The position numbers and the translations under genes are program-made. A stretch of 39,059 bases of DNA from an uncultured Porphyromonadaceae bacterium (GTDB taxonomy: Bacteria > Bacteroidota > Bacteroidia > Bacteroidales > Muribaculaceae). The notes under the pieces were generated by a model. That model saw only the letters and a program-made list of their open reading frames with translations. It was not told the DNA's origin and made no database searches. The stretch's first letter is position 1. Each line of letters opens with the position of its first letter. Shown here in pieces: positions 3,112-32,813 of the stretch. Location of the stretch: NCBI GenBank assembly GCA_947175695.1, contig CAMWNT010000010.1, positions 1-39,059 on the forward strand, written 5' to 3'.

Positions 3112-4389
3112 ATGGCAAACATACCATTGGCCGAGCGCATGCGGCCGGCGACGCTCGAAGATTATATCGGTCAAAGCCACCTCGTCGGCGAAGGTGGAGT
3201 GATTCGCAACATGATCAGCATGGGTCGGATCAATTCCTTCATTCTCTGGGGGCCTCCGGGAGTCGGGAAGACCACGCTTGCACGCATCATCGCCAACTCA
3301 ACAGAAGCTGAATTCTACACACTAAGCGCCGTGACTTCCGGCGTCAAGGATGTCAGAGAGGTGATCGATCGCTGCGAAGCCGCCGGCCGGAGTGTCTTCG
3401 CCAAGGCGCGTCCCATACTCTTCATCGACGAAATCCATCGATTCAATAAATCGCAGCAAGATTCGCTGCTCGGTGCGGTAGAGAAGGGGGTGCTGACGCT
3501 GATAGGGGCCACTACCGAAAACCCCTCCTTTGAAGTGATCCGCCCGCTACTCTCTCGCGCTCAAGTCTATACTCTGCGGCCGCTTGAACTTGATGAATTG
3601 CAGCGGCTGCTCGACAACACACTGGCCCGCGACCCGATCCTGCGCCAGCGCAACGCAAGAGTCGAAGAATCGACGGCCCTGTTCAGATTTGCGGGGGGCG
3701 ATGCCCGCAAACTGCTCAATATCATTGATCTTATCGAGCAATCCACGCCCGACGGCGAAGATGTGGTCATCACCGACAAAATCGTAATCGACCGACTGCA
3801 AGAGAATCCGGCGGCTTACGACCGCAATGGAGAATTGCATTACGATATAATATCGGCCTTCATCAAATCCGTCAGAGGCAGCGATCCCGACGCGGCTCTC
3901 TATTGGCTCGCCCGCATGGTGGCCGGTGGAGAAGATCCCGCCTTCATCGCGCGGCGACTTGTCATTCTTGCAGCCGAAGATATCGGGCTTGCCAACCCCA
4001 ACGCGCTGCTGCTTGCCAACGCCACCTTCGACGCTCTCCAAAAGATAGGATGGCCCGAAGGGCGCATCATACTCGCCGAATGCACCGTCTATCTCGCCAC
4101 ATCGGCCAAGTCCAACAGTGCGTATGCCGGAATAGGCGCAGCTCTGGCAGAAGTGGAGCGCAGCGGCAATCTCCCCGTGCCGCTTCATCTGCGCAACGCT
4201 CCGACCAAACTGATGAAAGACCTCGGCTATCATGAAGGTTATAAATATGCCCACGACTACTCCGGCAACTATGTCGAGCAGCAATACCTTCCCGACGCGA
4301 TCACCGGACGCCGATTCTGGCAAGCCGGCGCCAACCCGGCCGAATCAGCCATGCAAGAACGGATGGACCGACTGAAAAAGAAAAACTGA
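3112..4389 (+). CDS. rarA: Replication-associated recombination protein A (AAA+ ATPase)
   Basis: The product has 425 residues, the usual length for RarA/MgsA (bacterial WRNIP1 homologue). It opens with [17 protein letters not shown], has Walker [12 protein letters not shown] at about 47-57 and Walker [11 protein letters not shown] at about 102-111, then the sensor region [14 protein letters not shown]. The C-terminal half ([35 protein letters not shown]) is the typical tetramerisation domain. RarA acts at stalled replication forks and binds SSB and single-strand/duplex junctions. The start ATG is supported by the conserved N-terminal motif. The stop codon lies at the beginning of a 10-bp tandem repeat that fills the spacer to the next gene. 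Confidence 0.96.
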
Positions 4390-4467
4390 TTATTCCCGAT
4401 AAATCACGATTATTCAAGATTAATCCCGCAAACTCCCGATAAATCCTGACTAATCCAAATTAATCCC
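4388..4467. repeat. Eight-unit 10-bp tandem repeat (consensus GATTAATCCC)
   Basis: The spacer between rarA and the next gene reads as eight consecutive 10-mers: GATTATTCCC, GATAAATCAC, GATTATTCAA, GATTAATCCC, GCAAACTCCC, GATAAATCCT, GACTAATCCA, AATTAATCCC. The first unit overlaps the rarA TGA. The core GATTAATC is a perfect palindrome, and the period equals about one helical turn. Confidence 0.8.
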
Positions 4468-4482
4468 GAAAGCAAAAAAGCT

Positions 4483-6060
4483 ATGATTGAAGAAATTCAA
4501 TTGCGACTGAGCCCGGCGCAGAGCGCCTCGGCCGAGACAATAAAAAGTGAGGCCGCGCGGGCACTCGGATTAAAGTCCGACCGGATCCGCGATTTGAAGG
4601 TGACGAAGCGCTCGATCGACGCACGTCGTCGCGACATAGCCGTCAATATGACGGTGGCGGTCGCCTGGGGCGACGACGCGTCGGCTGTGCCGCCTCCCGC
4701 GGTGGTGGATTTCCGGCCGGTTGCGCCCGATGCGCCTGCGGTGGTGGTTGTCGGCGCCGGCCCGGCGGGATTGTTCGCCGCCCTGCGGGCTATCGAATTC
4801 GGGATGCGTCCCATTGTGCTCGAGCGAGGAAAGGATGTCGATTCCCGGCGCATAGACATAGCCATGCTCAACCGTACGGGAAATGTCGATCCCGACTCCA
4901 ACTACTGCTTCGGAGAGGGGGGAGCCGGTACGTTCTCCGACGGCAAACTCTTCACCCGCTCCAAAAAGCGGGGCGACAACCGCGCCGTGATGGAGCTGCT
5001 TGTGCAATTCGGCGCTGATCCTAAAATACTCTCAGACTCCCACCCGCATGTCGGGAGCGACCGTCTGCCCCATATTATCAAAGCCATCCGCGAAAAGATC
5101 CGCGAATGCGGCGGCGAAGTGCGCTTTGGCGCGAAGGTGGAGCAACTGATCATCGAACCGGATGCCGACGGTCGGCGAGCGGTGGCCGGTGTAGTCCTCG
5201 CCGATGGCTCTGCGGAGCGCGGCACAGTCGTACTCGCCACAGGCCATTCGGCTCGCGACACGATCCGCAATCTCTATGCCCAAGGGGTCGGTATGGAGCC
5301 GAAAGGACTTGCGATCGGGGTCAGACTCGAACATCCCTCCCAATTGATCGACCGCCTTCAATATCACACACCCGACGGGCGCGGAGAATGGCTCCCGGCA
5401 GCCGAATACAGCTATGTGGCGCAGGTCGACGGACGCGGCGTCTACAGTTTCTGCATGTGCCCCGGCGGGGTGGTCGTTCCGGCCGTGTCGTCGCCCGGAG
5501 AGAGCGTCGTCAACGGTATGTCGGCTTCGGCCCGCGGCGGACGCTGGAGCAACTCCGGCATGGTTGTAGAGATCAGGCCCGACGATTTCCCTGAATATCA
5601 ATCCGAAGGGGTGTTTCAGCTGATGCGGCTGCAAGAAGATCTGGAGCATGCGTTTCATCGCTCGGTAGGGGAGACGCTCAAAGCGCCCGCTCAGCGGATG
5701 TATGACTTCGTGAAAGGAAAAGAATCGAAAGATCTTCCGGCGTCGTCATATCCTCCCGGACTGCTTTCGCGCCGCGTCGACATGCTCCTTCCCCCCTTCA
5801 TCGCCGATCGACTGCGGCAAGGCTTCAAAGAATTCGGTCGACGCTCAAAGGGATTCCTGACCAATGAAGCCTGCGTCATAGGACTTGAAAGCCGCACCTC
5901 CTCGCCCGTCAGACTCCCCCGCGACCGCGAGACTCTTTGCCACACCGAACTCGCCGGGCTCTATCCCGTCGGTGAAGGGGCCGGATATGCCGGAGGTATC
6001 ATCTCGGCGGCTGTCGACGGCCGCAGGGCGATCGACTCGATTTGTGGAAAGCAAAAATAA
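4483..6060 (+). CDS. FAD-dependent oxidoreductase of the COG2509 type
   Basis: The 525-residue protein has a small N-terminal domain (residues 1-80, IQLRLSPAQSAS and LKVTKRSIDARRRDI), then a dinucleotide-binding Rossmann motif VVVGAGPAGLFAA at about 88-100 and the flavin-contacting FGEGGAGTFSDGKLFTR near 145. It continues with VLATGHSARDT and ends with YPVGEGAGYAGGIISAA, the second FAD contact. This architecture matches the broadly conserved 'FAD-dependent dehydrogenase' family of unknown substrate, related to geranylgeranyl-reductase-like and BFD-like flavoproteins. It is probably cytoplasmic, with no signal or membrane segment. The ATG at 4483 is preceded by AAAAAAGCT after the tandem repeat. 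The tsaB promoter sits over its last codons. Confidence 0.88.
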   Translation: MIEEIQLRLSPAQSASAETIKSEAARALGLKSDRIRDLKVTKRSIDARRRDIAVNMTVAVAWGDDASAVPPPAVVDFRPVAPDAPAVVVVGAGPAGLFAALRAIEFGMRPIVLERGKDVDSRRIDIAMLNRTGNVDPDSNYCFGEGGAGTFSDGKLFTRSKKRGDNRAVMELLVQFGADPKILSDSHPHVGSDRLPHIIKAIREKIRECGGEVRFGAKVEQLIIEPDADGRRAVAGVVLADGSAERGTVVLATGHSARDTIRNLYAQGVGMEPKGLAIGVRLEHPSQLIDRLQYHTPDGRGEWLPAAEYSYVAQVDGRGVYSFCMCPGGVVVPAVSSPGESVVNGMSASARGGRWSNSGMVVEIRPDDFPEYQSEGVFQLMRLQEDLEHAFHRSVGETLKAPAQRMYDFVKGKESKDLPASSYPPGLLSRRVDMLLPPFIADRLRQGFKEFGRRSKGFLTNEACVIGLESRTSSPVRLPRDRETLCHTELAGLYPVGEGAGYAGGIISAAVDGRRAIDSICGKQK

Positions 6061-15480: not shown

Positions 15481-15534
15481 GATTAATCATGATTAATCAT
15501 GTTACGCCTAAAACCTAAAACCTAAAACCTAACC
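15481..15534. repeat. Two short tandem repeats before lipA
   Basis: GATTAATCAT occurs twice in tandem (15481-15500), then CCTAAAA three times (15507-15527) followed by a degenerate fourth unit CCTAACC. These fill the spacer between pcrA and the lipA start. The GATTAATC palindrome is the same core as in the 4388-4467 repeat. Confidence 0.8.
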
Positions 15535-32545: not shown

Positions 32546-32813
32546 GTTCTTGCGTCTTATGTGGTGTTAGTGATGTAATTCATCCAAGTGGGATCCTGAG
32601 AAGAGAGGATGCGGGATCTATCTCCCGAATCGAATTACTATGTTAAAACAATACCAATTGAAAATAGTTATCCTATTTGTCTTAATTTTTTCGTAAATTT
32701 GTAAAAAATTTGTTAAGCCTTTTCGGATGAGGGTGATTGCTGATTAATCAGATGCTGAATATCAGGTGTTTATGATGGTCGATGGCCCTCTTCTATATAT
32801 ACAATATTTTAAA
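32546..32813. other. Divergent intergenic region, sigma factor and helicase
   Basis: It has an AT-rich centre (32640-32715). A rightward -7-like TAAATTTG (32694-32701) lacks a good -33 partner. A perfect 12-bp palindrome CTGATTAATCAG (32740-32751) contains the same GATTAATC core found in the 4388-4467 and 15481-15500 repeats. No full promoter was identified for the sigma gene on the minus strand. Confidence 0.4.

Follow-up and report, generated by a model that had tools for sequence, protein, structure and literature searches.

The gap between a rarA-like gene and a flavoprotein gene of an uncultured Porphyromonadaceae bacterium is taken up by a short tandem array, which raises the question of what such an array is and what might read it. 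Within the window (the whole stretch of 39,059 nucleotides analysed), this ORF-less array extends from 4388 to 4467 on the forward strand and, read directly from the sequence, is composed of eight degenerate GATTAATCNN units of period 10, in order GATTATTCCC, GATAAATCAC, GATTATTCAA, GATTAATCCC, GCAAACTCCC, GATAAATCCT, GACTAATCCA and AATTAATCCC. Exact GATTAATCCC is found in unit 4 only (4418); the other units are degenerate, with one mismatch to the GATTAATC core in six of the seven and four mismatches in unit 5 (GCAAACTC). A scan of the window for periods 5 to 24 in 70-base windows has its period-10 maximum at this stretch (47 of 70 matches), and TRF also picked up the array, bearing out the eight tandem 10-mers of the preliminary description. 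The upstream gene (3112 to 4389, forward strand, 425 aa) is a rarA-like AAA ATPase gene, the name given there agreeing with the sequence, and its TGA (4387-4389) shares two bases with unit 1, so that the first unit does overlap the rarA stop as had been reported. The downstream gene (4483 to 6060, forward strand, 525 aa) encodes an NAD(P)/FAD-dependent oxidoreductase-like flavoprotein; the array fills the gap between these codirectional genes, and its end lies 15 bp from the next ATG.

With eight units spaced 10 bp apart, all but one of which match the core with at most one mismatch, and an intergenic position between codirectional rather than divergent genes, the array falls within the GATTAATCNN period-10 family. 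It is a bare array, with no heptamer or nonamer flanks of the kind seen in composite elements, and no four-helix ORF is enclosed at 4388-4482, as it would be in an autonomous IVS-like element. The site lies between two protein genes and not inside a 23S rRNA gene, and an Rfam scan of the window matched no RNA family. A CRISPR array was excluded on inspection by the two-base spacers.

Exact copies of the GATTAATC 8-mer occur, as first described, at 15481, 15491 and 32742 in addition to 4418. The first two belong to a second array (15481 to 15498, forward strand), consisting of two perfect GATTAATCATGATTAATC units that form an 18-bp palindrome and the core of a composite element. The heptamer part of this element is a period-7 array identified by TRF, (CCTAAAA)3.7 (15507 to 15532, forward strand), and the whole element (15481-15532) sits between two codirectional genes. 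The third copy is an isolated core immediately preceding an ORF start (32742 to 32749, forward strand), with no adjoining units, and is probably a chance occurrence.

The family is widely dispersed in the genome of origin (187 contigs totalling 2.48 Mb, completeness 88%). The two-unit pattern GATTAATCNNGATTAATC, allowing at most two mismatches, matches 105 places, compared to none for the reversed pattern; the arrays are thus not due to chance, and the genome-wide enrichment check proposed in the preliminary description comes out positive, with strong enrichment between genes. As judged from the stretches around 27 of these arrays, most sit in the middle of a composite element between genes, in which TTTTAGG heptamers precede the 10-mer core and are followed by period-9 CCTTAAAGN-like units and/or inverted CCTAAAA heptamers; perfect double heptamers number 103 in the same genome, against none in the control. 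The period is conserved: successive cores are spaced by 10 (163 cases), 20 (50) or 30 bp (9), with off-phase spacings of 9 and 11 bp never seen and those of 19 and 21 bp seen ten times and twice. Retention of the 10-bp period while the units themselves diverge suggests a repeat-reading factor. Of the gene pairs that enclose the arrays, 50 are codirectional, 14 convergent and only two divergent, a significant depletion of divergent pairs relative to gaps in the same stretches (Fisher p=5e-4).

The distribution of GATTAATC arrays in relatives is very uneven. They are present in 35 of the 61 genomes of the genus and nearly absent from the order outside it, with isolated matches elsewhere; GATTAATC-like period-10 arrays were also observed in a Deltaproteobacteria MAG and in the cyanobacterium Pegethrix (L020, L024). 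Homologues of the flavoprotein are found in 55 of the 61 genomes, and the rarA-flavoprotein gene pair is conserved in eight relatives whose rarA is 82-88% identical. None of these eight carries an array at the junction, where the gaps range from -4 to 35 bp; one of them, G007, has more than 100 array matches elsewhere. The empty junctions in relatives constitute an insertion-like polymorphism and indicate that the 4388 array arose in this lineage, apparently by lineage-specific insertion or growth. Of the two observations that the preliminary description had asked for, enrichment of the 8-mer between genes therefore holds, whereas conservation in close relatives does not, at least for the 4388 array in the eight compared. 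In G007, period-10 arrays (L080-L099) alternate AAGATTAATC and AGGCTAAATC units with a 20-bp super-period and are polar relative to the adjoining genes.

In five species, an ORF of 248-253 aa is adjoined on one or both sides by period-10 arrays of the GATTAATC type or a similar one. Its product matches TIGR04258 (four-helix suffix domain) and PF01396 (Zn_ribbon_Top1) above cut-off, and bears a weak, sub-threshold similarity to the 23S_rRNA_IVP/four-helix models (TIGR02436/PF05635). Comparison of a moderate-confidence AlphaFold model of the four-helix protein (pLDDT 69) with the IVP structure 2GSC gave a weak fold match that is not significant (E-value 0.07). Approximately 20 close homologues in the genus are also flanked by arrays, whose units are of two types: GATTAATCNN in a clade of proteins sharing 79-82% identity with that of L018, and CATGATNNAT in a clade sharing 68-77%. 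Counted over 61 genomes and ignoring shared descent, dispersed CATG arrays accompany CATG-clade genes (11/12 versus 6/49, p=3e-7) and, weakly, sets of at least 10 GATTAATC arrays accompany GATT-clade genes (4/9 versus 5/52, p=0.02), while cross pairs, such as CATG-clade genes with GATTAATC arrays, are not significant. Some suffix genes (L121, L126) have no arrays beside them.

The genome of origin itself yields no match to PF05635, TIGR02436 or the suffix protein in its 88%-complete assembly, and G007, which is 99% complete, carries only a four-helix gene of the period-7 type alongside its many arrays. Arrays hence persist in genomes without a gene of the matching class. At L138, L139, L142 and L154, four-helix genes that are broken or partial adjoin surviving arrays, which suggests that arrays may outlive the gene. 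Among 148 sampled Bacteroidota genomes, 110 encode S23/IVP four-helix proteins, with as many as 15 copies.

To assign a period to the flanks of these genes, we applied a dinucleotide-shuffle test to both flanks of 128 four-helix genes, and the resulting periods follow protein length. Among genes for proteins shorter than 150 aa, 42 have period 7, 10 have period 8 and 24 are non-significant; those of 150-235 aa have period 9 in 18 cases, with six non-significant; and those of at least 236 aa have period 10 in 11 cases and period 9 in two, again with six non-significant. Proteins of ~120 aa are hence associated with periods 7 or 8, those of ~180-230 aa with period 9, and those of ~248 aa with a zinc ribbon with period 10. 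A maximum-likelihood phylogeny of 88 proteins implies 10 period changes, compared to 39.3 when the periods are shuffled, and none of 200 shuffles was as low. The split between periods 7/8 and 9/10 is fully supported, and a period-8 clade unites members from different host families. Furthermore, subfamilies differ in period within one genome: G021 carries genes at period 7 (L150, the L152-type L155 and L154) and period 8 (L156), and G078 carries genes at period 10 (L120) and 9 (L196), indicating that host composition is not the cause.

The association extends to held-out genes. All 14 held-out plasmid copies of ~120 aa (12 cyanobacterial, one from the Gemmatimonadota [Gemmatirosa] and one from Azospirillum) have flanks of period 7 (12) or 8 (2), and in a small held-out genus set five of seven short genes behaved as predicted, the other two scoring as period 9. 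Control genes in unselected stretches reached significance in 9/115 (8%), 1/41 (2%), 2/22 (9%) and 1/27 (4%) cases. These stretches were used as the baseline because controls from array-selected stretches, of which 77/249 (31%) were significant, are biased by that selection; periods 7, 9 and 10 dominated among them, in line with the dispersal of all three classes. The arrays are thus associated with four-helix genes, with a period that matches the protein subfamily. The period of the 4388 array is that of the suffix/zinc-ribbon subfamily; with no ORF at 4388-4482 and no four-helix gene in the assembly, we assign it to that class solely as an array that lacks the ORF.

The flanks of the short class are also inverted with respect to each other. 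Their complementarity exceeds that of mismatched flank pairs, with 41 of 76 above the 95th percentile (0 of 5000 permutations), and they are polar, being G-rich upstream and C-rich downstream in 45 of 53 cases (p=3e-8), whereas control genes show the opposite polarity. Neighbour-gene controls show a small excess of inverted matches (153 of 10000 permutations). Inverted flanks and strand polarity were both absent for period-9 and period-10 genes when tested.

These data bear directly on the proposal, made in the preliminary description, that a 10-bp period places each unit on the same DNA face and suits cooperative protein binding. The core is indeed palindromic, as had been claimed, and so are the period-10 units themselves; together with the exact 10-bp spacing across many diverged units and the non-coding location, this is what would be expected if each unit bound a dimer of a nucleoid-associated or regulatory protein on one helix face. 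However, sister families have periods of 7, 8 and 9, which misfit the 10-10.5 bp of B-DNA geometry, so that helical phasing is not a general rule; moreover, the arrays follow stops and shun divergent promoter regions, unlike regulatory operators, and no DNA-binding partner is known. We consequently regard helical phasing as an unlikely cause of the period. The other half of the proposal, a protein partner, fares better, and the four-helix-bundle family with array-flanked genes is a plausible candidate.

An explanation that dispenses with a partner, and which we consider similarly improbable, is that the arrays are neutral minisatellites seeded by chance, grown by slippage and spread by recombination, with four-helix genes as repeat-tolerant passengers. 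Drift of the unit sequence between species and even between loci, array growth by whole units and the patchy distribution across the genus would all be accommodated, and earlier accounts of intergenic heptamers name no partner (PMC4679880, PMC4692102). Neutral growth does not, however, account for a period that tracks the protein clade, also in a held-out phylum, and that differs by subfamily within one genome, nor for matched inverted flanks with polarity and the near absence of single-base shifts. Least probable of all is that the repeats merely build the stems of RNA hairpins acting as 3'-end or processing signals (a terminator, mRNA stabiliser or RNase III site). In its favour, composite elements fold much more stably than shuffled sequences (z -5.9, -5.8 and -4.5, the last for the hairpin of the 15481 array), arrays are depleted between divergent genes, and 23S IVS stems are cleaved by RNase III (PMC4990558). 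Against it, folding is weak for the 4388 array (z -2.9) and absent for an array from G007 (z -1.4), a terminator 15 bp from the next ATG would silence the flavoprotein gene, and the period classes are left unexplained. Rho-site and nucleoid-protein ideas were dropped, as no test result favoured them.

Taken together, these data lead us to favour, as the probable interpretation, a family of IVS-like elements read by a four-helix protein ring, to which the 4388 array belongs as a member lacking the ORF. Points that count against it are the lack of a matching-class gene in the 88%-complete assembly of origin and in G007, the suffix genes with no adjoining arrays, the period-9 and period-10 genes whose flanks are neither inverted nor polar, the two held-out short genes at period 9 and the weak GATT-clade co-occurrence. 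In ORF-bearing members, short-period arrays would surround an S23/IVP/Avd-like four-helix gene, providing its putative binding and element-end sequences, and the 4388 GATTAATCNN array would belong to the period-10 class. We infer that each subunit would bind one single-stranded repeat unit, either in RNA of the intercistronic transcript or in a displaced DNA strand, RNA being the preferred candidate. With one unit per subunit, the period would correspond to the arc per subunit and grow with protein size. A single strand extends ~0.6 nm per nucleotide; by our estimate, five units of 7 nt would come to ~21 nm and the ring to ~7 nm, and larger subunits would go with longer units. The structures 2gsc and 2rld contain five chains each, and the solved relative Xcc0516 is a five-bundle ring according to a title cited in PMC3936711. 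ORF-less arrays such as that at 4388 may be non-autonomous copies, relics or binding sites, placed by putative insertion or unit-wise duplication behind stops in a manner that would spare promoters and genes.

More tentatively, with odds that we would put slightly against it, the arrays and proteins may define a widespread and unrecognised class of elements, in which a four-helix ring reads one unit per subunit and ring geometry sets the unit length at 7, 8, 9 or 10, with one half being the intergenic heptamers known for decades from cyanobacteria, Beggiatoa and Xanthomonas, and the other the S23/IVP proteins. Two long-standing orphans, intergenic short tandem repeats and S23/IVP proteins, appear to belong together, and a period that follows the protein clade would be an unusual quantitative code giving both a function. 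A literature search on the GATTAATC core returned no relevant report, and no paper stating a link between four-helix/IVP proteins and such repeats was found in the literature covered, which was partial and included few subscription journals.

Among known systems, small, dispersed, palindromic and intergenic REP/BIME and MITE repeats, possibly mobilised in trans, resemble the arrays in these respects but differ in that the arrays show no transposase link and consist of tandem units with a fixed period of 7-10 bases. The TAACTGA heptamers of Beggiatoaceae, Cyanobacteria and Bacteroidetes, intergenic tandem direct repeats with no clear function (PMC4679880), are likewise dispersed, change by whole units and are missing between the same two genes in related genomes; they differ in having period 7, another unit and no proposed protein partner, in contrast to the period 10 and four-helix link reported here. 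The GGGAATC/GGGGACT heptamers of Xanthomonas and Nostoc (PMC4692102) are also intergenic, rarer between divergent genes and strand-biased around ORFs, but they were read as G-quadruplexes, were reported to be stable at orthologous sites and were not considered together with a four-helix partner.

On the protein side, Avd of diversity-generating retroelements has a related four-helix fold in a nucleic-acid system, with homology to PF05635 (PMC10053308). Earlier work noted IVP genes within cas loci (PMC3936711). We observed four-helix genes with period-7 or 8 flanks between cas6 and cas4, or between cas10/cmr2 and cmr3, on cyanobacterial plasmids (L274, L275, L279), which may explain such reports. 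The short class has the layout of 23S rRNA intervening sequences, in which the S23p/IVP ORF lies inside a stem, as in the Coxiella IVS (PMC4990558): there, too, a four-helix ORF lies within complementary ends, although the copies described here lie mostly between protein genes and carry tandem arrays instead of simple inverted ends, and many arrays have no ORF. In Azospirillum lipoferum AZO_p2 (L281), a four-helix ORF with period-7 flanks lies in an apparent 23S rRNA gene, and these flanks raise the possibility that classical IVSs are part of the class described here.
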